Source: a virus. From it: a stretch of 22,986 nucleotides of DNA. Position 1 is the first letter of the stretch; the number at the start of each line of letters is the position of its first letter. The position numbers and the translations under genes were made by a program. Positions 1,583 through 21,829 of this stretch are shown in pieces. The DNA is taken from positions 1-22,986 of the IMG/VR virus record IMGVR_UViG_3300021961_000672; one strand, 5' to 3'. The notes beneath the pieces were generated by a model, which saw only the letters and a program-made list of their open reading frames with translations, was not told where the DNA came from and made no database searches.

Positions 1583-4516
1583 TTACCTCTTTTTCCCATC
1601 GATCTTGGCTTTAAGATCAAAACCGTCAACTTCAGTGTCCAGGAATAGGCGTTCTTGCGCCACTTTTCGATACTTGCCAATAATTCCCGTTATGGCATTT
1701 CGTTTTGCCTCATTGCCAACAAGACTATCATAGTCTTTACTCATAATCATATCAGTCAACACATAGAGCATTGTGCCTTTTGAACTGTATCCTTCTTCTC
1801 CAGGCATCCTGTTGTTTATCAGATCGATCGTATTAGTTGTAGTGATCCATTTGTTATATTGGTCTGCATTAAGTTCTACGCCGCCGATCTTCTTTTTAAA
1901 ATCAGATATGCCAAAGTTAATACGTTGTAGTTCTTCATCCACTAGATTAAATTTGGAGTCGCGGATACGAACAGGGTTTATCATCTCCCATGCAGAGCCA
2001 GACCCCTGCGGCATTGTCTCGCCCCAATGGTTTAATGCTGGTGGCAGAGAACCATTGAAGAATGGATTGCGTGCCTTTGCTTTTTGCAGGGCTGTATAAA
2101 AACCTTTTGCAAAATTTGGTAACGTAGTTGGGTCCTCACCAAACAAACCTTCAGCCGGAAGCATTGTGTTTTTTTGATTTGGATCACGATATCGTGCAAT
2201 TGCAGCAGAGCCGGAACTTACTGTTGGCAAAATAGACAAAACGCCAGCGGTAAGTTTCTCTGTAAATAATTTTTGCAGAGCTTCATTTTTTTCTGTTGGG
2301 TTCTGAAGTATAAGAGCGCGTGCCATTTCTGCAACATTCTGCATATATGGATGCTGTAACATATATTGCGACATTGCTGTCGATGCAGCGGATGCCAAAT
2401 TATCGAGTACATGCTGGTCTTTTTCGTGCTTCGCATAGTAAGCATAGTCAGCAGCAATAGCGAGCAGCCCAGACACAGGGTCAAAACGGCTATAAGTGAA
2501 AGACTTATAGCTTCCATCTTCTTGTTTTACCGATACAGAATATGGGAGAAAATTTTGCCGTAGCCATGCTTTGCGCACATTAGGGTCGCTTGGGCCGTTT
2601 CCATTGATAATGATATCGCCGTTTTCCCCACCAGTCATTGCTAAGTAAGCAAAACTACCAGTTATCATACCGCCCATTGCAATTTTCGACATAGCAATAT
2701 CGGCTCTTCTGCCGCCAGCCAGAAGATCATTGCGCAATTCAGAACTAAAAAACTGAACACCAGGTGTGCGCTCAACGACAGCCTTCATAATATTAGTTGG
2801 AGTTTTAACAAACGGCACATACAACTTTGCAATCGGGTGTTGTGTTGCATCTTGAACCTTCTTCATTAGTCCAGTTAGATCTTTCTGAAAGACCATTTCA
2901 CGGGCAGCGTCTTGAATGTCCTTGACAACACTCTCAGGTGGATCAGTCAATATTCTGTTGCGTTCGATCGATGCCATCGACATCGCATCCTGTGGCGTCT
3001 TGCCAGCAGAAATTGCTTCATCGTAGACACGCTGGCTTCGGATATATGCTTCCTTACGCAATCCCATCCTATAGCCAATTGCCTTGAAGAACTCATCTTC
3101 AGCCAAAAGAAACCGTCCAGGCATCCTGATGCCAACGCCAAGAACATTTACTGCACCGGCTACAGAATTACCCTCACGGAATTGTTTATAAATTTCTGCA
3201 ATATCGCCGGTATTTCCAATGGCTTTAGCGCGACGCAATTCCATTTTTGAGACAAGATCACCTGCTTCTTCTTTTACAAAAGACTGGCCCGCAACAAGCA
3301 ATGCGTCCATAAATCCTTCATAAACACCTTGCGCTTCAGCAATTGCCTCGCGAGCATAGACACGATCGGTATTTCCGGTAATCTTGGATCGCAATTTGCC
3401 AATGCCACCCGCAATAGCTGTTTCAACCATACGAGTAGCCATAAATCCAGCATTACCAGCCACGTTAACAATATGCGTTGCTGGTGCGGATAATATACTG
3501 TTGATGAATGCCTCTGCCATGACATCCATTGTGCGATTTAGGAATCCGGCTTTGACAAAAGTTGATTTCTGATGTGGTGATTTTAATGCCAGATAAGCAG
3601 TTACAACATATTCAGCATCTTTTGCCGTCTCAGCACCAAACAGGCTTGTGAGGCTTGTGATATCGGCAGCCCGTTTCTCGATAGATTCAGCGCCCATAGC
3701 CTTTTGCGCTTCGCGCAAAACATATAAAGCCCTGCCAGCCTCAGACCCGGCACCACTAATCTGAGCTAATAACTCGCCTTCAATAGAAACTATCTGGAGG
3801 CTGCGTTTTAGGGCTGCTTCCTTTTCAGGGCCATCAGCCATTGTCAACGCTTTGGTACCTAAAGCCTCTCCTTCACTTCGCAGGGCTCTTGATGCAAGTA
3901 TGCCAGCAAGGATGTCCTCACCATTTGCACCTTCACCGACTGACCTTGTAAGCCACTGGTAAATTGTAGAGTCTACGTTTTTTGCGTCAGCTTTTTCAAG
4001 CAACTGCTTAAAGTTTAATGTGCCTCGTCTGGCTTCTTCAAATTTATCCGGGTTTGCGTTTTTCAATTGCTGCAAATAACTGGCCAAATTAGTATCGCCG
4101 GCAGCCTCTGCTATCTTGGGGAAGTTAATTCCCTTTGTATAATCTTTGCTAAAAATGGTAGATAGCTTATTTACCTCATCATCGGTCGCTGGTCGAATGA
4201 GAACGGTCTTGTCTACCACCTGAACAGGAACATCAGGTAATTGAGGACGAGTGCGTGTCTCAGCTTCAGTAACACGTTTGCCGATCCTGCCAGCAATCGC
4301 CTCGACGATATCCTTCATGCCGGCAACTTTGACCGGCTCAATCACAGGATCAGTTGCGGGAGCTTCTAAAACAGACGGCTCTAGCGCACTAGGCTGGGCT
4401 GGCTCTGGCGGCGGCGCAATGGCATCAGCGGACAACTCCATGTCCGGCGTAGGCACAGCAGACTGCGGCTCAAGAGCCGACTTGAGAACTGCACCAATGT
4501 CATCCTGCAATGCCAT
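1583..4516 (-). CDS. Large internal virion / DNA-ejection protein candidate (977 aa)
   Basis: The longest gene of the window. It sits at the end of the internal virion protein block and just before the tail fibre, where T7 carries gene 16. I see no peptidase or transglycosylase signature. The N-terminal ~70 residues are Pro/Ala-rich and probably disordered. The rest is mainly helical, with Ala/Gly-rich hydrophobic stretches, for example around residues 345-375 (SAPATHIVNVAGNAG) and 610-635 (IAMGGMITGSFAYLAMTGG), that could enter a membrane. Near the C-terminus is an aromatic/Pro segment ending INPVRIRD. Start ATG overlaps the stop of the 280-residue gene as TAATG. The role is inferred from position, size and composition; T7 gp16 is larger (about 1,300 residues) and carries a transglycosylase that is absent here. 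Confidence 0.62.
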   Translation of the reverse strand: MALQDDIGAVLKSALEPQSAVPTPDMELSADAIAPPPEPAQPSALEPSVLEAPATDPVIEPVKVAGMKDIVEAIAGRIGKRVTEAETRTRPQLPDVPVQVVDKTVLIRPATDDEVNKLSTIFSKDYTKGINFPKIAEAAGDTNLASYLQQLKNANPDKFEEARRGTLNFKQLLEKADAKNVDSTIYQWLTRSVGEGANGEDILAGILASRALRSEGEALGTKALTMADGPEKEAALKRSLQIVSIEGELLAQISGAGSEAGRALYVLREAQKAMGAESIEKRAADITSLTSLFGAETAKDAEYVVTAYLALKSPHQKSTFVKAGFLNRTMDVMAEAFINSILSAPATHIVNVAGNAGFMATRMVETAIAGGIGKLRSKITGNTDRVYAREAIAEAQGVYEGFMDALLVAGQSFVKEEAGDLVSKMELRRAKAIGNTGDIAEIYKQFREGNSVAGAVNVLGVGIRMPGRFLLAEDEFFKAIGYRMGLRKEAYIRSQRVYDEAISAGKTPQDAMSMASIERNRILTDPPESVVKDIQDAAREMVFQKDLTGLMKKVQDATQHPIAKLYVPFVKTPTNIMKAVVERTPGVQFFSSELRNDLLAGGRRADIAMSKIAMGGMITGSFAYLAMTGGENGDIIINGNGPSDPNVRKAWLRQNFLPYSVSVKQEDGSYKSFTYSRFDPVSGLLAIAADYAYYAKHEKDQHVLDNLASAASTAMSQYMLQHPYMQNVAEMARALILQNPTEKNEALQKLFTEKLTAGVLSILPTVSSGSAAIARYRDPNQKNTMLPAEGLFGEDPTTLPNFAKGFYTALQKAKARNPFFNGSLPPALNHWGETMPQGSGSAWEMINPVRIRDSKFNLVDEELQRINFGISDFKKKIGGVELNADQYNKWITTTNTIDLINNRMPGEEGYSSKGTMLYVLTDMIMSKDYDSLVGNEAKRNAITGIIGKYRKVAQERLFLDTEVDGFDLKAKIDGKKR

Positions 4517-5358
4517 TACATAGACCCCGCATCATTGGTTATGCTTGTATCAGAATTGACATTATCGGGCAAATCTGCATCACGAAGTTGATCGATTATG
4601 GCTTTTACATTCTTGCCGCCATTAGCTTTCATTGTCTTAATTCCAGCAAAAATACCTTCAATGGCATATCCAAGACCAGCGCCTTCCAATGCGTTTTTCA
4701 TCCGAGCCTGCAACCTCTTACCGGCAGATGCGTCGCGCCCAACTTTGCTATCAAGATATTTAAATAATTCTGGTGCGAACCCAAGCTGAACTGCGAGGCT
4801 AGATAAATTGCCTTCTTCTGGGTCTTGTAATACATCAGAGGCAACGCTTGCTGTCACAGTGCCTGCCCCCAGACCCTTTAGCAGAGCGAATGTTAAAGCA
4901 AATTGCCCTATATTCTTGATGACCTTGCCGGTTTCGGTATCTGGGGAAATATTAGGAATTATGTTACGAACCGCTTCTAGGGCCTTTGGGTCTTTGCCGA
5001 GCAAGCCGCTAACATAATCTATTGCTTCTGCCCCTAAATTAAGAACTTGTTGTGCTGTGCCGGCCACCGCGCCTCCAAATACCTTTTCAGCCTCTGTAGG
5101 TTGTATAGGCGCAGCAGCACCAATATTCCCAGGTGTGCCAAGTGCAAGTGATTCCGCTGGCTGACCAGGAAATGGCGATGCGGGTAACTTAGGGCGAAGC
5201 GGGTCTGTCGCAAATTCACTCAAACCCCATGTGTCGGATTTCTGCAATGGAGCCACAATGTCGCTTGGTTCCACTTCAACACGACCATTGCGCAATTGCA
5301 TAGGCAATTCGCTATCAGCAATGCTCATTGTTCTGGAGAGTTCTTGCTCAAGGTTCAT
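4516..5358 (-). CDS. Probable internal virion protein (280 aa)
   Basis: Lies between the 598- and 977-residue proteins with overlaps at both ends (ATGA upstream, TAATG downstream), so the three are almost certainly translated together. The N-terminal ~90 residues are Pro-rich and low complexity. The middle has amphipathic or hydrophobic helices (around residues 95-120 and 150-180, the latter with FALTFALLKGLGAG). The C-terminal part includes the Ala/Gly helix ALEGAGLGYAIEGIFAG. No catalytic motif is visible. Composition and place suggest a head-interior protein ejected with the DNA. It may be the detached N-terminal part of a larger gp16-like protein whose remainder is the next gene. Function is inferred from context only. 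Confidence 0.6.
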   Translation of the reverse strand: MNLEQELSRTMSIADSELPMQLRNGRVEVEPSDIVAPLQKSDTWGLSEFATDPLRPKLPASPFPGQPAESLALGTPGNIGAAAPIQPTEAEKVFGGAVAGTAQQVLNLGAEAIDYVSGLLGKDPKALEAVRNIIPNISPDTETGKVIKNIGQFALTFALLKGLGAGTVTASVASDVLQDPEEGNLSSLAVQLGFAPELFKYLDSKVGRDASAGKRLQARMKNALEGAGLGYAIEGIFAGIKTMKANGGKNVKAIIDQLRDADLPDNVNSDTSITNDAGSM

Positions 5359-7151
5359 TGCTGTCCACCTTTAAGACGTTCTTTCTTTTTCAAATCTTCG
5401 ATCAACGCCTTGATCTTTTGCTGTATAATTACAAATCCAGCGCCTGTCTCATGTCCGCGCTTGTTGATAAATTCTTTTTGCAATGTTTCAAGATCAGCAA
5501 TCGAATCCATGCGCTTTAATATGTCTGCTGGTTTTTCTCTTGCAAAAGGCCCAAGAGAGTTACTTTTTTTCAAAAAAGAATAAATATTATTTTTCTCTCT
5601 ACTTATCTCACTTGCACTCATTGTTTTATTTTGATCTTCTTTTATTGCTTGCTCAACAATCTTCATCGGCTCAAAAGATCCGCCTTCGCGACGAACACGT
5701 TGCAATTCTGCAACCAGCTTATTGGATATGCCCTCAACTTTATTTTGTTTATCACGTTGTGCGCCAATTGGATTAAGCAACCCAGTGGGTAGTTGAAGAT
5801 AAGTGCGATATGCCTTAACGGCTTCTTGCAAGGACTGGTTGTTTGCCGTTTTGATTTTTTCAAAATATGGCAAAGCATCTTTTTCGCTTAGTTCACCCTT
5901 TGTGATTTTATCCACAACATAGGCGCGTGTTAGTTCGAATTTAGATAACCTGATTTCCAATTCACGAAGCGTAGCGGGATCAGTCGTTGGTGGACCACCA
6001 CGAAACAGCGTACTGTATGGTGCAAATTTATCACTTCCCAAAATACGCATCTGTTCCAATGACGCCTTCATGCCATCTTTGTTGCCTTTTTCATAATAAT
6101 CAATGAATTCAGTGTTTGCCATTCTTATTGCAACAGAACGCCTACGCTCTAATCTTGCATCCGCATCGTCTTGCAAATCATGCGCTTCCTTGCCACGGCG
6201 CACAATTTCCTTAAATACAGCACTACGCTGTTCATCATTCATCGCGGCAAATGCAGACTCAACTGGTGTTCCTACGCCCCGGTTAGCTCTTAATTCTTGA
6301 GCCCTTCTTATATTAACCATCCCAGTTTCATCTGTCACATAATCAACAACAACACCAAGCCGGCCCGCTTGAACTGCGTCATTGAAACGTGTAAGCGCAG
6401 ATTTGGCCATAACTGGATCGCCAATACTATAGGCTAGTTTTAAAATTTTATTACGTTCACCAGCAAGGATAGCTTCAGATGGAACAACAATCTGATCGCC
6501 AGGTTCAAAAGCATCTTGAAACTGATCGCCTGTCTTAACGATATTGCCAACGCTTTCAACAATATTATCTATTGCAGCAACCGCTGCAACCTTGCGGCGT
6601 TGCTCTGCTTTCGATGCAAGTTGCGTAGCATGCACCTTGTACTGCATAGACGCAATTGTCGCGAGGCTTGCCCGCAATGACCCAGCAGCCGTAGGCGATG
6701 CAGATGCGATTGCGTCGCCGTAGCCCTTAATCAGATTGTTCATCTGGGCTGCATACTGGTCGGCCGGAACTTCCGTCTTGAGAATGTTGGCGTGCATCTG
6801 GGCGAGTTCGTTTCTTGCTGCCGACTCAACATTCAGTCGCATTGTGGATAGAGCCTGCGCCCTAGCCGCCCTGCCAAACACGGTAGTCGTATCGCCAGGC
6901 ACATTGACCGGATCGCCATCTTCCTGCGCCCGCTTGATCTGCTCGATCGTCGGTGCCTTATCAGCGCCATATTCTGCACCTTCAACGACAGCCTGCTGCA
7001 TTGCCTGCCTGAACGCAAAGTTCGACATCTGCGTCAAGCTGGCAGATATGTTGCGCCCCAACGATGCAGCAGCCTGACCAGCCGCTGCTGTCACAGGTTG
7101 CGGTGCTGCAATCGTTATGCCTGCCGGCGTATATCTGGGAAGTGGTGCCAA
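5355..7151 (-). CDS. Internal virion protein, gp15-position (598 aa)
   Basis: Large, mostly helical, charged protein in the slot of T7 gp15, the middle member of the ejected internal core. The N-terminus (PLPRYTPAGITIAAPQP) has the Pro-rich opening seen in many podovirus internal proteins, then Ala/Gln-rich helices and long alternating-charge helices toward the Lys-rich C-terminus. The start codon is TTG at 7151-7149. It follows GAGGA by a good spacing, and the next in-frame ATG is about 40 residues in and would remove the conserved-looking opening. The gene starts 10 nt after the gp14-like stop and ends in an ATGA overlap. The last third is notably AT-rich, with only 15 G/C in the 60 bases at 5581-5640. 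Confidence 0.68.
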   Translation of the reverse strand: MAPLPRYTPAGITIAAPQPVTAAAGQAAASLGRNISASLTQMSNFAFRQAMQQAVVEGAEYGADKAPTIEQIKRAQEDGDPVNVPGDTTTVFGRAARAQALSTMRLNVESAARNELAQMHANILKTEVPADQYAAQMNNLIKGYGDAIASASPTAAGSLRASLATIASMQYKVHATQLASKAEQRRKVAAVAAIDNIVESVGNIVKTGDQFQDAFEPGDQIVVPSEAILAGERNKILKLAYSIGDPVMAKSALTRFNDAVQAGRLGVVVDYVTDETGMVNIRRAQELRANRGVGTPVESAFAAMNDEQRSAVFKEIVRRGKEAHDLQDDADARLERRRSVAIRMANTEFIDYYEKGNKDGMKASLEQMRILGSDKFAPYSTLFRGGPPTTDPATLRELEIRLSKFELTRAYVVDKITKGELSEKDALPYFEKIKTANNQSLQEAVKAYRTYLQLPTGLLNPIGAQRDKQNKVEGISNKLVAELQRVRREGGSFEPMKIVEQAIKEDQNKTMSASEISREKNNIYSFLKKSNSLGPFAREKPADILKRMDSIADLETLQKEFINKRGHETGAGFVIIQQKIKALIEDLKKKERLKGGQQ

Positions 7152-7161
7152 TTATCTGTCC

Positions 7162-7788
7162 TCAGTACATCGTGCCGGTTACATATTGCGGATAGCCAGA
7201 AAGACTTGGTGATGGCGTAAGACTAGAAATAATTCTAGGACCAGCAAGTGACTGTGTTGGAGTCTGCCCGCCAACAGACCCGTACTTCTGGAATCCACCA
7301 AGCAGACCAGCGGTCAAACCAAACACGCCCTGCATCATATAGGACGATGCGGCATCTCGATAGGCAGCAGCATTAGCGGCCCCACCCAACTTGGCCATCT
7401 GAACATTTTCTTGCGCCCAGTTGTATTCATCAAGACCCTTGTTCAGAGCATACTCTGATAGCGCCCCAGCAGATCCACTAAACGGATCAATGCCACCGGC
7501 AGCGCCGCGAGCATTGATGGCCGCCTCTGTTTCCATTGTGCGGTTCATCACCTGTATAGCCTGGCGCTGATAGTTCATCGCCTGTTGATTACCTTGGATC
7601 AAAGCATTAGTTGCTTGGATCTCCATGGCCTTGGCCTGCGCCATGCCAGTAGCAAGAGCGCCAACGCCACTGACGACGCTGCTCAGCAGTCCAAGTGTTG
7701 ATGACGTAATCCCTATGCCGGTAGCAGCCGCTCCTACTGTGGACGCTGCACCGGCAATTGCTGGTCCTATCGCTGCAAGAAATGCCAT
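7162..7788 (-). CDS. gp14-like internal virion protein B
   Basis: 208 residues; T7 gp14 is similar in size (about 196). The first ~50 residues are a Gly/Ala-rich hydrophobic segment. A helical Gln/Asn-rich part follows (about residues 55-90), then the short GGIDPFSGSAG motif typical of gp14-like proteins, and a second Gly-rich hydrophobic patch near residue 155 (GVFGLTAGLLGG). In T7, gp14 leaves the head during ejection and forms a pore in the outer membrane. The start ATG directly follows the stop of the nozzle gene (TAAATG) with GGTGGGA as Shine-Dalgarno. Order nozzle - gp14 - two or three large proteins matches T7 genes 12-14-15-16. Confidence 0.8.
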   Translation of the reverse strand: MAFLAAIGPAIAGAASTVGAAATGIGITSSTLGLLSSVVSGVGALATGMAQAKAMEIQATNALIQGNQQAMNYQRQAIQVMNRTMETEAAINARGAAGGIDPFSGSAGALSEYALNKGLDEYNWAQENVQMAKLGGAANAAAYRDAASSYMMQGVFGLTAGLLGGFQKYGSVGGQTPTQSLAGPRIISSLTPSPSLSGYPQYVTGTMY

Positions 7789-13016: not shown

Positions 13017-14642
13017 TTACACTTCCTCTAGATCCTCACCGGGCAGCGGCGGCTCCGCTGGTGCCGCCTGTCCCTGATCTGCCGGCAGTGCGCCAGATGC
13101 TGCCGCCTGCTGGGCCATCTGCATAGCCATCATGGCCTGCTGCTGCTGCTGCATCTCTTCCATTTTCTGCTGCCGCTCTTCCGGCGTAGTACGGACACGG
13201 GCCGGGATGCCAAGATTGTCTGCGATCATATCGACAATCTCGCCAGGCTTTGATGCTATCTGGCCTTCTGGTCCCATCTGCTGCGAAATCTGGAACCACT
13301 GCAAAGTCTTTTCAATCTCGCCCATCTGCTGCGCCTGTGCGATCGGCGAGATCGGCACAACCTTAACCTCTAGGCCGTTGACCTTCAGCGGCAGATCAAT
13401 CATGCCAACTTCGTCCATGATCTGTAGTGTCTTGGTGACAACAGGGACCATGGTCTCAGTAATGAGGCGGCCAAACGCAGAACCCAAATTGGTCGCCAAC
13501 TCTTTCATGCGTTCAGCGATCTCAGTAGCCGAACGCGCCGACATAGTGTCGGGCGGAAGTGTATCGTCCAGCAGCATCTTCTTGACATTCATGCGGATGT
13601 CCTGAAGCACAAGCTGCGTCACGTTAAAGTCGCCAGCACGCGGCAGAGGACGAAGGCTCTCGCCCTGCGGCCCACCATTGCGAGCTACCGGGATGATCGC
13701 ACCGGGAACGATGCGGATCGTCTGCGGGTTCAGAACGCCATCGTCTGCCGCAGTGTAGACGCCGGCAATCGCCAGAGACGCATTCTTCAGCAGCAGTTCG
13801 ACAGTCTTGTTCAGCGTCTTGATGTCAGGCAATGCCGCAACCAGAGGACCGCGACCATAGATTTCACCAGCCAGCTTGCTATACCGAGAGACAATCCACG
13901 GAGAGAACCGCATTTTACGATGGACGATCTTCTCCTTGTCGCGGCCAAAGATCACGCAATAATGCCACTCATCTTTTTGAATATCGTGTGTGGTCGCTTC
14001 CAACAAGTCAACTTCGTCGGTGGCCCGTTCAACCAACATACGCTTGAGCGTATCGCTCAACTTGGCGTCAGGCCATGTTGGTTGTATTGTTTCGACTTTA
14101 AGGCGCATACGCCGGTAGACGTTCTCAGGGATGCCGTCAACGCCTTCGTCGAACGCCAACAGATATTCTGGTACAGGCTGAAAGCGGACAGGCATATCAC
14201 CCGTGCCTGGCTGTACCATCATAGCGGCTGTGCCGACAGTCAGGTCCAGCAGGAACTCGCCCATAGCCAGATCAAAATTGCTTTGGCGCAAAACCGTAAA
14301 AAATTTATCGGCATATATGTCCAGTGCAGCCTGCGCCTCGATGCGCCGATCCATCGGAATGTCGGTGCCTGGCTCAAGTCTCATCCAGCGTCCATAGGGC
14401 GGGAACAGACCTGACTGCAAGCGATTGGCAAAACGCTGCGTGCTATGGATCGCTGTCGAGTCGAACACCTTGACCATCTTCTTCTGGCCAGGCACGCCAC
14501 CCTCATATGCGCCATCGTACAGATTTCGCTGGGGCAAAGCGTATTCATAACAATCTTGATAGATCTGACGCCAATTCAATTTGCGAGCGTATGCTTTCTC
14601 GCTGCGCTTCATCAAATCATCGACTTCAAGCGGGTACTTCAT
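13017..14642 (-). CDS. Portal (head-tail connector) protein
   Basis: 541 residues, the size of T7 gp8 (536). The opening KLNWRQIYQDCYEYALPQRN, then DSTAIHSTQRFANRLQSGLFPP and WMRLEPG, is typical of the T7-type connector family. It would form the twelve-subunit ring through which DNA is packaged and to which the adaptor binds. The C-terminal 50 residues hold Gln/Met/Ala-rich runs (residues about 490-515 with QQQQQ) and an acidic Pro-rich tail. The start ATG overlaps the upstream hydrolase stop as ATGA. Confidence 0.92.
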   Translation of the reverse strand: MKYPLEVDDLMKRSEKAYARKLNWRQIYQDCYEYALPQRNLYDGAYEGGVPGQKKMVKVFDSTAIHSTQRFANRLQSGLFPPYGRWMRLEPGTDIPMDRRIEAQAALDIYADKFFTVLRQSNFDLAMGEFLLDLTVGTAAMMVQPGTGDMPVRFQPVPEYLLAFDEGVDGIPENVYRRMRLKVETIQPTWPDAKLSDTLKRMLVERATDEVDLLEATTHDIQKDEWHYCVIFGRDKEKIVHRKMRFSPWIVSRYSKLAGEIYGRGPLVAALPDIKTLNKTVELLLKNASLAIAGVYTAADDGVLNPQTIRIVPGAIIPVARNGGPQGESLRPLPRAGDFNVTQLVLQDIRMNVKKMLLDDTLPPDTMSARSATEIAERMKELATNLGSAFGRLITETMVPVVTKTLQIMDEVGMIDLPLKVNGLEVKVVPISPIAQAQQMGEIEKTLQWFQISQQMGPEGQIASKPGEIVDMIADNLGIPARVRTTPEERQQKMEEMQQQQQAMMAMQMAQQAAASGALPADQGQAAPAEPPLPGEDLEEV

Positions 14643-15811
14643 CCGATCAAACCTCTCGAACGCAAGCCAAACCGCTGCGCCATTCTACCAATTTCGCTCT
14701 CAACCTGCGGACCACCCTGCTGCAACTGCTGCTGCGCTACTGGGATCGGCTGCATTCGGAACTGCGCCACTGGCGTATCTTCTTTAGCAGCCTGTTTGAC
14801 GGCTGGAGTTGCCGCTGCATCCGGTGTCTCTGCCGGCATACCATCTGTCTTAATGGTCGTAAGATCTTTATAAACCTGTGAAATTGATCGTGTGTTGCCA
14901 TCTTTATCGTAGAAGATGCTAGGATTAGCGACGGCTGCCTTCTCGAAATAATTAGCAGCAATATCGTTTGGCGTTTCCTTGTTCATACGCATCAAGCTAG
15001 CGGCGCCTGCCGCACCAAGAAAATGCGCAGCATACAATTCACCATCGGTCGGCGTAGCGCCTGTAATCTGCGTAATAGTTTGGCTGTTCTCTTTCGTCAG
15101 AGCCGCAGCCATAATCGCAGACCACTTCGGATCGAAGCGGGTTGTCCCCATTGGCATCTTGACCAATGCACCATACTTGGCCACCATGCTGTTCCATGTG
15201 GCGTCAGTGAACTGGAACAATCCGCCGGCACTGCTATTGGGGTTCTTTGCGCCAGGCTTGAACCGGCTCTCTCGCCACGCTGTTGCACGCATCAAAGCGG
15301 GATTGACGCCAAACATTGCAGCGCCTGCATCAATATCCTTAAAGACGCCGCCAAGCGGAGGAGGATTGGGGATCACGCCGCCGCCTGTACCCATCAGCTT
15401 GGCAAGATGCGGCTGCGCCCATGCCGGGAAAGCCTCTGGCTTTGCGCTGGCATAAGGTGCGTTAGGGTTAGCACCCCACAGCGACGGGTTGCTGCGCGTA
15501 TCTATATGAAGCGTCTTTCCGCCTTTATAGATGCCGACGCCTCTTGCTCCGGCAGCTATAGCCTGCGCCAGAAGATTTGACTTTTGCTCGTCCGTCAGGT
15601 GGCCGATCGGGATGTCCAGAGCATTGCTATGCAAATGCTGACTATTGCTAGCGCCGCCAACTGCAATATTTTGCGCAGCCGTCCGATGCCCCGACGTGAT
15701 GTTTAGGTCAGGCAAAGTGGCATTGCGCTGGATATACATGAGCATATTGCGCGTCGGCGCACTCAACATATCCAACCTCACGCCTGGATTAAACGTGAAG
15801 TTTGTTGGCAT
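14639..15811 (-). CDS. Two-domain murein hydrolase: M15 peptidase plus lytic transglycosylase
   Basis: 390 residues with two catalytic modules. Residues ~10-106 match the M15_3 peptidase pattern: SGHRT at 40-44, SQHLHSNALD with H59 and D66, and LHID with H102 as the third zinc ligand. Such domains cut the peptide cross-links of peptidoglycan. A linker with GTGGG and Pro-rich residues (141-152) leads to a lysozyme-fold transglycosylase domain: WRESRF with catalytic E181, then SSAGGLFQFTDATW, continuing to about residue 290. The C-terminal ~80 residues are Gln/Ala/Pro-rich. No signal peptide is seen. In T7 the transglycosylase is part of gp16; here it is separate and lies beside the portal. It may be a virion-borne enzyme opening the cell wall at entry, or the lysis endolysin. 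Starts with a TAATG overlap. Confidence 0.87.
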   Translation of the reverse strand: MPTNFTFNPGVRLDMLSAPTRNMLMYIQRNATLPDLNITSGHRTAAQNIAVGGASNSQHLHSNALDIPIGHLTDEQKSNLLAQAIAAGARGVGIYKGGKTLHIDTRSNPSLWGANPNAPYASAKPEAFPAWAQPHLAKLMGTGGGVIPNPPPLGGVFKDIDAGAAMFGVNPALMRATAWRESRFKPGAKNPNSSAGGLFQFTDATWNSMVAKYGALVKMPMGTTRFDPKWSAIMAAALTKENSQTITQITGATPTDGELYAAHFLGAAGAASLMRMNKETPNDIAANYFEKAAVANPSIFYDKDGNTRSISQVYKDLTTIKTDGMPAETPDAAATPAVKQAAKEDTPVAQFRMQPIPVAQQQLQQGGPQVESEIGRMAQRFGLRSRGLIG

Positions 15812-16047
15812 TAGGAACCTGATCCAAGAGTAGTTGTACCAGCTTGGCCAAGATCTTTTTGACCCGCATCGGTATTGGCAAGAAGCTGACGCATGCCACC
15901 AGAGCGACGTGCCGTAGCCATTGCGGCCATCTGCCTCTGCCTATCAACTTCCTGAGCATCAAGTCTGGCCTGCTGCTTCTTCTGCATTTCAAGCTGCTGC
16001 GCCTGCATGGCCTCAGCATTCCCGCCACCACCAAACAATCCTGCCAT
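15811..16047 (-). CDS. Small Gln-rich protein of unknown function (78 aa)
   Basis: A Gly-rich opening (AGLFGGGGNAEAM) is followed by a continuous Gln/Lys/Arg/Ala helix (residues ~12-45) that could form a coiled coil, and a Gly/Ser/Thr-rich C-terminus. I do not recognise it. It overlaps both neighbours by one base (TGATG upstream, TAATG downstream), which supports real translation. Small proteins with a Gly-rich start and a Gln-rich helix are often found beside internal virion proteins, so a virion role is possible. Confidence 0.6.
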   Translation of the reverse strand: MAGLFGGGGNAEAMQAQQLEMQKKQQARLDAQEVDRQRQMAAMATARRSGGMRQLLANTDAGQKDLGQAGTTTLGSGS

Positions 16048-16499
16048 CAGAAAATCCTTGCAAGTCGAACATAGTCCCGCTTGTCGGGTCCATATGCCTT
16101 CATAACCCCTTCGCTAGTAAATCCTAAAGATTTTGCATATCGTAATGCTATCACATCGCTTGCATCTACTGACATGTGCAATCGATGTGCTTGCAAAGTG
16201 ATAGCGTCGCTATCAATGTGATATCTCGATTGGCGTATTGTAGCTATCGGATAGCGTTCAATTAGATATCCAGACAGGAACCAGCACTCATAAACGCCTG
16301 GCCATTGCGGTATGTAGCCCCAAGAGCAAGCCGGACCCTCACCATCTACTATAGCTGTGCAGCTTAGGCCTAATGCCTCTTGCTGTTTTAGCTTATCCAT
16401 ATAACCAGGCACTTGCTCTATGTTCCGCCTTTCTGCTTCGCGGATGTCAATTGCCTTGATGTGATACCATCGAAATGGTACGATCGTAACCTTTGGCAT
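16047..16499 (-). CDS. GNAT-fold protein, T7 gp13-like
   Basis: 150 residues. The second half has the acetyltransferase-like ending: LHMSVDASDVIALRYAKSLG, F-T-S-E-G-V, then an aromatic and Arg. The first half (IKAIDIREAERRNIEQV, SCTAIVDGEGPACSWGYIP) follows the pattern of phage gp13-type proteins (DUF2833), which are GNAT-like and were once called internal virion protein A. T7 gp13 is 138 residues. Whether it acetylates anything is unknown; the usual Q/R-x-x-G-x-A acetyl-CoA loop is not obvious. TAATG overlap with the large terminase gene. Confidence 0.65.
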   Translation of the reverse strand: MPKVTIVPFRWYHIKAIDIREAERRNIEQVPGYMDKLKQQEALGLSCTAIVDGEGPACSWGYIPQWPGVYECWFLSGYLIERYPIATIRQSRYHIDSDAITLQAHRLHMSVDASDVIALRYAKSLGFTSEGVMKAYGPDKRDYVRLARIF

Positions 16500-18043
16500 T
16501 AGAATACGCTAAAATCAGATGTTGCCACAAACTGCTTGCCGCTAGGACCAGACTTGCCGCGAGTGATATACTTGTGTTCGCCGCCGCCCATCATCAGATA
16601 GCCAAACGCATCGCCGACATGTGAGTGTTCGTTCTTATGTGGACTATCCTTGAACCGCTCATGGCCAGCACCGACAGCGACACGCTTGAAATGGTAGCCG
16701 CCGGCAAGTGACTTCCTGAGCCGGTGGCAGTCACGATGGATCAGCAAACCGGGTCTGCCATTGACCAGCCGCTGCATCGGTGCAGCACCGGCCTCACGGC
16801 GCACCATGAAATCGTTCGATGCCGTTGGCTGCGCCTTCAGGCCGACCGATTGCAAATGCTCGAAGGCCGTTACCTCAAAGATTTCATCCCGCTTCATACC
16901 AGCAGGATCGCCCCATATAAAAACCTGGGACATGCGAAACTTCGTGTTGATCTCGCTCAACAGCATGTGCGTAAATTTTTCCAGCCCCATGCTGAACGAT
17001 ACAAGTTCATGGACCACATGCCAGCGGCCCTCGATCTTCTGGCCAAACACTGCAGCAGGCGTCAAACCAAAGTCCAGCCCGATATGCACATCCTCACCTT
17101 CGCGGATGCGTAAATCATCGACCATCGTCGAATCATCGTATTCATGCCACACAGGTCGCCCTTCCTGCACATATACGTACTCGCCCTGCGCATAGCACCT
17201 GATCCAGTCCAGGTTTTTGCCGGCAAGCTGCTGGGCATAATACCCCATCGGCAGATTGTTGATGTTCTCAGCGGACGTATTCTCCTTCCAGAACTTGCCG
17301 GCAGAGAAAATCGCCTCGTCGTCGTCAAAGGACTCGACTACGCCACCAGGCTGCTTAAAGAACGTCCACTTGTACTGGCCCCGGATCGGCTCCTTCTCAG
17401 CCAGCTTATACCACCAATGGTCATCGTCCATCGGGTTGGTATCCATCCAAATGCCGCGCCATGTCGGCCCACCATTAGCTTTTGTAGGAAAGCGACCGAC
17501 GCGATGGGTCAATCCGTCTATCACTGCCTTGGGCAACTCTCGTGCTTCGTTTACCCATGCGCCGGTCAATTCCAATGATAGCAGCTTTCTGACATCTTTG
17601 GGCTGGTCCAATGCCAAAAAAATTACTTCGCAGTCAATGCCTGGAACGTCACCCCTCGCCGGCAGCTTGATGTGATGCGTGATCGGCGGGGACCAGCGCA
17701 TGGCACCCCAAACATTCTCAGGAAACAGTTCCTGCCAAGTCTTGATCGTCGTTGTCCGCAACTCAGGATAAGAGTTACGCACAATCACAAACCGCGTGTA
17801 CCTTATATGGTCCTGCGGCGATGGTGCCTGCTTGACTGCTCGCAAGATAATCTCAGCCGCAGACGCATACGACTTGCCTGAGCCGACAGGCCCAAGCAAG
17901 CCGCGAACAAAGCTGTCATCATTCAGAAACCGCCAGACAACCGGCGACTTGCTGAAATCAAGGTCCAGCCCCTCCAGCGCCTCCTGCTCCGTCTGCTTTT
18001 TCGGTCGCTTCGACTTGTCCGTCGCTGCCCTCGTTCTCGCCAT
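16499..18043 (-). CDS. terL: Terminase large subunit
   Basis: 514 residues. The ATPase domain has Walker A GPVGSGKS at 51-58, a Walker B-like GAWVNEARE with the catalytic Glu, and the coupling motif MDTNPMDDDHW. The nuclease domain starts with IGLDFGLTPAAVFG (first RNase H-type Asp), then FIWGDPAGMKRDE and a late HVGDAFGYLM with the last acidic residue. It packages DNA into the prohead and cuts it. The start at 18043 lies inside the small terminase gene, behind AAAGGA eight bases upstream, so 86 nt are read in two frames. Confidence 0.95.
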   Translation of the reverse strand: MARTRAATDKSKRPKKQTEQEALEGLDLDFSKSPVVWRFLNDDSFVRGLLGPVGSGKSYASAAEIILRAVKQAPSPQDHIRYTRFVIVRNSYPELRTTTIKTWQELFPENVWGAMRWSPPITHHIKLPARGDVPGIDCEVIFLALDQPKDVRKLLSLELTGAWVNEARELPKAVIDGLTHRVGRFPTKANGGPTWRGIWMDTNPMDDDHWWYKLAEKEPIRGQYKWTFFKQPGGVVESFDDDEAIFSAGKFWKENTSAENINNLPMGYYAQQLAGKNLDWIRCYAQGEYVYVQEGRPVWHEYDDSTMVDDLRIREGEDVHIGLDFGLTPAAVFGQKIEGRWHVVHELVSFSMGLEKFTHMLLSEINTKFRMSQVFIWGDPAGMKRDEIFEVTAFEHLQSVGLKAQPTASNDFMVRREAGAAPMQRLVNGRPGLLIHRDCHRLRKSLAGGYHFKRVAVGAGHERFKDSPHKNEHSHVGDAFGYLMMGGGEHKYITRGKSGPSGKQFVATSDFSVF

Positions 18044-20335: not shown

Positions 20336-20872
20336 TCAAAAATCGTCGCTTTCGATATCATCCTCCGGTGCTGCTTCCGGTGCAGCCTCATCCCACTCAA
20401 TGCTATCGCGTGCGACCCACTTAACGATCTCGAACTTAGGCTTGCGCGTGTTACCCTTGCCAACCTTCATGGCTTCAGAGCCAACGTATTTGACAACCGG
20501 AACCTTGCCAGCGTTCTTCTCCTTTGCGTTCCATATTTCTTCAAACACGCTCTCGAAACCCATGACAGGGCCGGTGCCAGTGGATGACCACTCGACAACG
20601 CCAATGTCTTTCACGAACAGCTTTATCGAGAACCCGCGACGATAGTCACCGTCCGGCCTCTTCCCCTGCACGCCTAAACGCTCGTCCCAAACCCACTGCG
20701 GTGCCTGACCCTCCGCCATTAGCCCCCAGCCGGACTTTACCGATCCATGATCGATAACAAACTGCTTGAGTTCAACTTCCTCTTTATTGACCACCCACGC
20801 ATTCATCGAGGGCATATAGCGGATATACTTGCCGCCACCATTGCTGGAATTGCTAAGACCTAATATTGACAT
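20336..20872 (-). CDS. Candidate single-stranded DNA-binding protein
   Basis: 178 residues. The body is beta-rich with many aromatics (KYIRYMPSMNAWVVNKEE, GWGLMAEG, PQWVWDE) and basic patches (KGNTRKPKFEIVKW). The C-terminus is a strongly acidic tail ending DDIESDDF. An acidic tail with a terminal Phe is the hallmark by which T7 gp2.5 and bacterial SSB bind replication partners. It sits directly before the primase-helicase. I do not recognise a classic OB-fold signature, so the assignment rests on tail, composition and neighbour. The ATG follows AAAGG by eight bases. Confidence 0.6.
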   Translation of the reverse strand: MSILGLSNSSNGGGKYIRYMPSMNAWVVNKEEVELKQFVIDHGSVKSGWGLMAEGQAPQWVWDERLGVQGKRPDGDYRRGFSIKLFVKDIGVVEWSSTGTGPVMGFESVFEEIWNAKEKNAGKVPVVKYVGSEAMKVGKGNTRKPKFEIVKWVARDSIEWDEAAPEAAPEDDIESDDF

Positions 20873-21005: not shown

Positions 21006-21365
21006 TTAGCGGCGAGATCGTGACCGACATCGAATATGATGTCGGTGTTCGTTGCCACCAACACTGAGATGTATGTGCCGGTGATGTGTGCATCTGGCGT
21101 AAGTGATAACACCAAATCCCTTACTTAAAGCCGCGCGTATGATGCCACGCTTCCACTTGACATCAACAGCCCCACGACGCTTGTCGCAATAAGAGTGCAA
21201 AGAAGCACGCCGTTTGCCTCGTATCCGCGCACCGCGTCGATAACTGCTAACAACCGTCAACTTGTGATAGCGCACAAATTCACGCAGTGCCGGCGGCGTG
21301 CAATGCAACGACGATGCCTGCGCAGGCGCAATGCCCAAAAATGCCGCCAAAAAAAATACCATCAT
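21006..21365 (-). CDS. Exported M15-type peptidase candidate (119 aa)
   Basis: From ATG 21365 (ATGA overlap with the RuvC-like gene). A second ATG follows at once; an upstream TTG is unlikely. Residues 1-17 are a signal peptide (hydrophobic VFFLAAFLGIAP, then AQA cleavage). The mature part has VVSSYRRGARIRG, SLH with H57, GAVDV with D68, and HRHIHLSVG with H97/H99, the order of zinc ligands in M15 D,D-peptidases. The H-to-D spacing is longer than in the two-domain enzyme at 14639-15811 (an extra YCDKR-like insert), so activity is not certain. Very basic, with an Arg/His-rich C-terminus (HRHHIRCRSRSRR). Export to the periplasm would suit cell-wall cutting at lysis. No transglycosylase domain. 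Confidence 0.62.
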   Translation of the reverse strand: MMVFFLAAFLGIAPAQASSLHCTPPALREFVRYHKLTVVSSYRRGARIRGKRRASLHSYCDKRRGAVDVKWKRGIIRAALSKGFGVITYARCTHHRHIHLSVGGNEHRHHIRCRSRSRR

Positions 21366-21829
21366 TTGGTAACACCCCACCAAGCGATCAAAGCCGCGTC
21401 AGCGCGACCATCGTCCTTAGCCCGCGCAAAATACGTCGCAAATGCAGGAAACAACTCAGCAGCCCTAAGCCGCGCGCCACCCTTGCCGCCACGAGTTCCC
21501 GTAAACTTCTGCCACCGCTGCGGCGCGACCACTGTCGTCGGCACCATCAAGGCACCCAAACATCCCTCCAGCATGCCGACCGTCCGGCCAAATTGATACA
21601 TGCTAGACACACCCTGCCCAGGCCTCGCACCAACTAACTCCAAATACGCATGCGTCGGTTCGTACTTGCGCAGCAGGCCGGCGACGATCGGCGTCGATAC
21701 CTCACGCTTCAGCTTGCCGTTGCGCTTGACAACAAGCACAGGCATGTCATGTATCTCAAGTACACACTTCTCATCATCAAAAAATGCCAAGGCACCTGAC
21801 GCGCCTGGATCAATGCCAACGATCCACAT
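21362..21829 (-). CDS. RuvC-like Holliday-junction resolvase
   Basis: 155 residues with the RNase H-fold acidic residues of RuvC: D7 in IVGIDPGASGALAFF, E64 in HAYLELVGARPGQG, and the pair in DDGRADAALIAWW (D140, D144). Phage RuvC-type nucleases cut branched replication intermediates before packaging. The length is slightly below that of bacterial RuvC (about 170). The start has a near-perfect Shine-Dalgarno GGGAGG seven bases upstream. That site lies within the reading frame of the small membrane protein, which overlaps this start by 20 nt. Confidence 0.87.
   Translation of the reverse strand: MWIVGIDPGASGALAFFDDEKCVLEIHDMPVLVVKRNGKLKREVSTPIVAGLLRKYEPTHAYLELVGARPGQGVSSMYQFGRTVGMLEGCLGALMVPTTVVAPQRWQKFTGTRGGKGGARLRAAELFPAFATYFARAKDDGRADAALIAWWGVTK

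Follow-up and report, generated by a model that had tools for sequence, protein, structure and literature searches.

Bacteriophage T7 carries a transglycosylase at the N-terminus of gp16 (PDB 7EYB, 9JYY); this domain is required for genome entry when the peptidoglycan is highly cross-linked, and the gp16 hydrolase domain has been described as able to swap to the gp15 homologue (PMC8954989). In phage phiKZ, gp144 has been reported as a component of the particle (PMC7909554), and it forms chain S of PDB 9XPS, an entry titled as the phiKZ neck structure. Virion enzymes combining two lytic domains include HydH5, phiMR11 gp61, phi11 gp49 and CwlP, which pair an amidase or endopeptidase with a lysozyme at the tail tip or baseplate in phages of Gram-positive hosts (PMC5380687). 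A 2017 review counted only five two-lytic-domain virion lysins, all from phages or a prophage of Gram-positive bacteria; among phages of Gram-negative bacteria it listed a single virion lysin demonstrated to be an endopeptidase, and P22 gp4 was its sole example at the neck (PMC5380687). Our literature search for fused M15/lytic transglycosylase phage virion proteins returned only an endolysin survey.

Here we analyze a two-domain enzyme encoded in a 22,986-base record of an uncultured virus (the window, meaning this whole stretch of DNA). The isolate nearest to it is Methylophilales phage MEP301 (portal 63%, capsid 70%). Like T7 gp16, the enzyme has an SLT fold, with its E181 aligning with E37, and belongs to a podovirus with a separate ejection-protein cluster, but in T7 the SLT domain is part of gp16 and an M15 domain is lacking, whereas the SLT domain of the window occupies a separate gene by the portal gene. 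Its closest solved SLT relative is phiKZ gp144 (3BKH), a protein of a jumbo myovirus whose chain, unlike the enzyme, has no M15 match. Neither the domains nor what they are for is new, and their mosaic movement is known as well; new, as far as we found, is that the two domains stand alone as one protein at the portal locus in a podovirus whose relatives infect Gram-negative bacteria, with an M15-less form in one relative.

An enzyme gene coupled to the portal gene

The open reading frame encoding the enzyme (Table 1) is genuine. The original prediction had placed an M15 peptidase site (H59, D66, H102) and a transglycosylase site (E181) in this one protein, and the residue numbers proved exact. 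Pfam detects Peptidase_M15_3 (PF08291) at aa 36-104 (E 1.4e-12, 48.1 bits against a curated cut-off of 23.2) and SLT (PF01464) at aa 162-258 (E 7.8e-10, 38.8 bits against 21.3), scores well beyond chance, and the AlphaFold2 model, built with 29 related sequences, folds both domains confidently (mean pLDDT 83; 88-98 in most of their blocks). Pairwise dN/dS against the orthologues L002 and L003 is 0.06-0.11 for the whole protein, and purifying selection acts on each domain as well as on the final 30 residues.

The SLT domain (dN/dS 0.036 against L002, 0.090 against L003) can be assigned to family 1 of the lytic transglycosylases, its score exceeding the cut-off and its catalytic Glu being correctly placed. 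Sequence comparison matches this part of the enzyme to phiKZ gp144 with E 3e-27, and the modelled domain superimposes on 3BKH with Z 21.1 (36% identity over 169 residues), on the T7 gp16 core chain 9jyy_I with Z 10.9, and on Slt, MltF and MltE with Z of about 12-13, which identifies the modelled fold as lysozyme-like.

The M15 domain (dN/dS 0.055 against L002, 0.094 against L003) has at H102 an HxD motif as in YcbK and MepK and no acidic residue three positions before it, so its catalytic base, as far as sequence can tell, is uncertain. Its first two predicted Zn ligands were aligned with 1LBU, the S. albus Zn DD-peptidase; in YcbK, modelled on 1LBU, the corresponding His/Asp/His residues have been described as Zn ligands (PMC3927764).

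Within the Gln-rich C-terminal tail, which the original prediction had singled out as a possible virion anchor, the Gln/Ala-rich stretch turned out to be the fast-evolving spacer (dN/dS 0.37 against L002, 0.23 against L003), and the conserved portion of the tail is instead its last ~30 residues (0 against L002, 0.12 against L003). On these values, constraint falls on the two domains and the extreme C-terminus, with the Gln-rich stretch left loose. Residues 334-371 and 382-390 have pLDDT <50; the tail and the short helix modelled at 370-380 are low-confidence predictions.

Table 1. Coordinates of the enzyme gene, its predicted parts and neighboring late genes in the window.
Feature	Position	Strand	Details and evidence
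M15_3-SLT two-domain peptidoglycan-cutting enzyme (predicted)	14639..15811	-	390 aa, ATG start; Pfam, orthologues, dN/dS
M15_3 Zn-peptidase domain (predicted)	15452..15811	-	aa 1-120; Pfam; pLDDT mostly 80-96; dN/dS
H59 codon, predicted Zn ligand	15635..15637	-	in SQHLHSNALD; aligns with 1LBU residue 154; invariant in orthologues
D66 codon, predicted Zn ligand	15614..15616	-	same motif, SQHLHSNALD; aligns with 1LBU residue 161; invariant in orthologues
H102 codon, predicted Zn ligand	15506..15508	-	HxD motif in TLHIDTR; invariant in orthologues, kept in aligned M15 relatives
SLT lytic-transglycosylase domain (predicted)	14852..15346	-	aa 156-320; structure matches to 3BKH and 9jyy_I
E181 codon, predicted catalytic acid	15269..15271	-	in AWRESRF; aligned with T7 gp16 E37 and phiKZ gp144 E115
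Variable Gln/Ala-rich spacer	14732..14851	-	about aa 321-360; dN/dS; pLDDT mostly <50
Conserved C-terminal segment, proposed docking tail	14642..14731	-	aa 361-390, short helix 370-380
Portal (head-tail connector)	13017..14642	-	PF12236 7.7e-96; overlaps enzyme stop (ATGA)
Small Gly/Gln-rich protein	15811..16047	-	translationally coupled to enzyme (TAATG); kept in MEP301 gp43, L003, L004
Acyltransferase-like protein	16047..16499	-	PHROG 308 'internal virion protein'
Terminase large subunit (TerL)	16499..18043	-	late gene block
Ejection-protein cluster, 4 ORFs	1583..7788	-	PHROG 418 and 6651 internal virion proteins

The late block runs in the order TerL, acyltransferase-like protein, small Gly-rich protein, enzyme, portal, scaffold and capsid. 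The enzyme start overlaps the stop of the upstream gene and the enzyme stop overlaps the portal start, bearing out the claim that the activity stands beside the portal gene. The companion claim, that the ejection proteins lack a transglycosylase, is likewise upheld, as searches of the four ejection-cluster ORFs with Pfam and with purpose-built HMMs found no M15 or SLT match.

Two neighbors of the enzyme merit separate mention. The small Gly/Gln-rich gene stands upstream of the enzyme or portal gene in the window, MEP301, L003 and L004, and its products (window 15811-16047 (-), MEP301 gp43 and gp42 in L008, L003 4650-4886, L004 8491-8742) share a GGxRxLL ... TLG ending, with MEP301 gp42 and gp43 resembling copies of one another. 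Position and size alone liken the small protein to T7 gp6.7/gp7.3, a kinship supported by no tool match. The acyltransferase-like protein, with its PHROG 308 match, shares the late block of the enzyme, and its fold is an unexplained one for a virion.

Relatives at the locus and within larger phage proteins

The relatives L002, L003 and L004 encode a two-domain protein at the same locus (96%, 81% and 42% identity, respectively), each retaining both domains and the equivalents of H59, D66, H102 and E181. A full-length match (38% identity, E 8.7e-35) was also found among public predicted structures: A0A6J7XLY2, a 400-aa protein of an uncultured Caudovirales phage, titled 'LT_GEWL domain containing protein', a name covering the transglycosylase part only. 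A genome-contig scan with the enzyme as query yielded no relative, and tblastn against 50,697 phage records yielded no match covering at least 80% of the protein, only separate SLT or M15 matches.

In L021 the interval between the small gene and the portal gene is filled by a 249-aa SLT protein with no M15 domain and with the same tail, in which the extreme C-terminus of the enzyme is recognizable; in MEP301 the same interval holds gp41, with a weak SLT match of 17.0 bits, below the Pfam cut-off of 21.3. The view of the peptidase as an addition is thus sustained by M15-less versions at the locus in L021 and probably in MEP301. The enzyme is likely to have originated when an M15 domain, akin to those that other podoviruses carry within their ejection proteins, was added to an SLT protein encoded here.

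A search with the M15 domain located its nearest kin (49-52%) within proteins of 764-880 aa encoded directly downstream of a gp12-like tail gene (L098-L101), and M15 domains occur at a similar position in L105, L108, L117, L125 and L153. In a tree computed from 115 columns and containing some long branches, the M15 domain of the window groups with those of L098, L100, L104 and L004 at 94/98, a grouping that we regard as suggestive only.

The same two predicted activities, in the same N-terminal order, emerged from a search with the whole enzyme, in which VanY(M15)-SLT was found to head gp16-like internal virion proteins of 1473-1481 aa in L022, L024, L055 and L072. The pairing is therefore not peculiar to the window gene, although in these proteins the M15 domain is of the VanY family rather than M15_3 and is fused to an ejection protein of 1470-1480 aa. 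Their genes are flanked by one of gp15 size and one that is tail-fibre-like, and the proteins match PHROG 342 with E <1e-160. This match starts only at the SLT domain, leaving the VanY peptidase outside the profile. The enzyme of the window matches PHROG 342 over 19-212 of 1235 only; compared with a T7 gp16-like ejection protein it lacks the long C-terminal ejection region, ending ~70 residues past the SLT domain. With the VanY-SLT region of L022 as query, tblastn against the 50,697 phage records again gave only separate SLT or M15 matches and none covering at least 80%.

Other arrangements include SLT followed by VanY in L046, M15_3 followed by SLT within a 1054-aa protein in L030, and Hydrolase_2 followed by M15_3 in L118 and in the isolate Agrobacterium phage Atu_ph02. 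The Atu_ph02 protein, named 'cell wall hydrolyse' (1191 aa) and belonging to the tail/ejection block, resembles the enzyme in joining M15_3 to another wall-hydrolase domain, but that other domain is Hydrolase_2 and the whole is embedded in a large protein. Peptidases thus probably became paired with glycan-cutting domains more than once, with different M15 families taking part. Among the relatives, peptidase and transglycosylase modules occur in gp15-position, gp16-like and stand-alone genes. Together with the locus in its forms with and without the peptidase, they lend themselves to comparisons of which cuts are needed for a podovirus to cross the wall and of how modular its ejection machine is. 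Expressing the free-standing protein of 390 aa should also be far simpler than expressing an ejection protein of 1,400 aa.

A proposed role at entry

We consider it probable (about 0.75) that the enzyme is a virion-associated entry lysin, that is, the lytic module of a podovirus ejection protein encoded as a separate gene and translated with the portal. This reading is favoured by the overlaps at the locus, the M15-less SLT-type proteins of L021 and, with its weak match, MEP301 in the same interval, the separate lysis gene of L004, the presence of homologous modules in ejection-cluster proteins and the lack of both domains in the virus's own ejection proteins; the virion location and both enzymatic activities are predictions. 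We infer that the enzyme would be incorporated close to the portal or internal core, with the C-terminal segment perhaps providing the attachment, and would be ejected early in infection, whereupon the SLT domain would cleave MurNAc-GlcNAc bonds, the M15 domain would cleave stem or cross-link peptides, and the combined cuts would open a hole for the DNA tunnel. Two cuts might, as the original prediction proposed, breach the wall faster. The presence of phiKZ gp144 in the particle and neck fits such a placement by analogy, and does not prove the same for the enzyme.

The original prediction had allowed for either entry or lysis, and of these two the entry role is the better supported by inference. 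An endolysin, or one of two, that releases progeny at the end of infection is an unlikely identity for the enzyme, even though endolysins commonly contain either kind of domain, the name endolysin is also applied to phiKZ gp144 and the MEP301 lysis gene encodes an M15A peptidase. Neither a signal peptide nor a SAR helix is apparent in the enzyme sequence, no holin-like or spanin gene is apparent beside its gene, which is coupled to that of the portal, and its nearest M15 relatives lie within ejection-cluster proteins. The lysis region of the window itself falls outside the fragment, and the argument against an endolysin leans on relatives. The L004 contig is complete and circular at 34.8 kb: its ends join in frame, without overlap, to yield an intact ORF for the protein found at window 20336-20872. 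In this genome the orthologue is the sole M15 and the sole SLT match, and the tail-fibre gene is followed by a GH19 protein with a C-terminal TM segment (PF00182, 3.3e-12) and then by a 76-aa TM protein. Since lysis has a gene of its own in both relatives, GH19 in L004 and M15A in MEP301, we regard it as an improbable function of the two-domain protein. The L004 endolysin lies at L015 10105-10914, equivalent to 29004-29813 of the L004 contig. A GH19 domain with a C-terminal TM segment resembles the arrangement described for Hafnia phage Enc34 (PMC8943055).

Slightly less probable again is a virion-associated enzyme in which the transglycosylase alone matters for entry and the M15 domain merely binds or is vestigial. 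The M15-less versions at the same locus and the lack of an obvious general base would suit such a reading, but the Zn ligands and the HxD motif are retained and the M15 dN/dS of 0.055-0.094 is comparable to that of the SLT domain. An assembly-stage enzyme acting on the wall before release could draw on the tight coupling with the portal gene, but is very improbable, podovirus assembly being cytoplasmic and the homologous modules sitting within ejection-cluster proteins.

More tentatively, and with somewhat less than even confidence, the entry lysin proposed here may represent a dual-activity type of Gram-negative podoviruses, no longer part of the ejection proteins, docking as a free subunit at the portal or neck through a conserved C-terminal peptide with a putative docking function, and adding cross-link cleavage to glycan cleavage. 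If so, the DNA-ejection machine would hold its wall-cutting module as a cartridge that is mobile and can be separated from it.

Pfam searches detected no SLT domain in Vibrio phage 1.138.O, Dunaliella virus SI2 or the pelagiphage Hodr, which does not imply that these viruses lack an entry lysin. Within the window, the 125-aa ORF at 21006-21383 (-) was considered as the endolysin and set aside after Pfam, PHROGs, tblastn and hhalign gave no match. It has an N-terminal hydrophobic stretch and an M15-like H ... D ... HxH pattern (SLHSYCDKRRGAVDV ... HHRHIHL), and judged by this pattern is possibly a second, secreted peptidase, or else a chance resemblance. The identity of L007 to the window is 93-99% through the portal, capsid, tail and first ejection ORF and falls to 51, 43 and 36% in the following ejection ORFs, a sharp recombination boundary seen on setting L007 6672-9919 against window 1583-7151.
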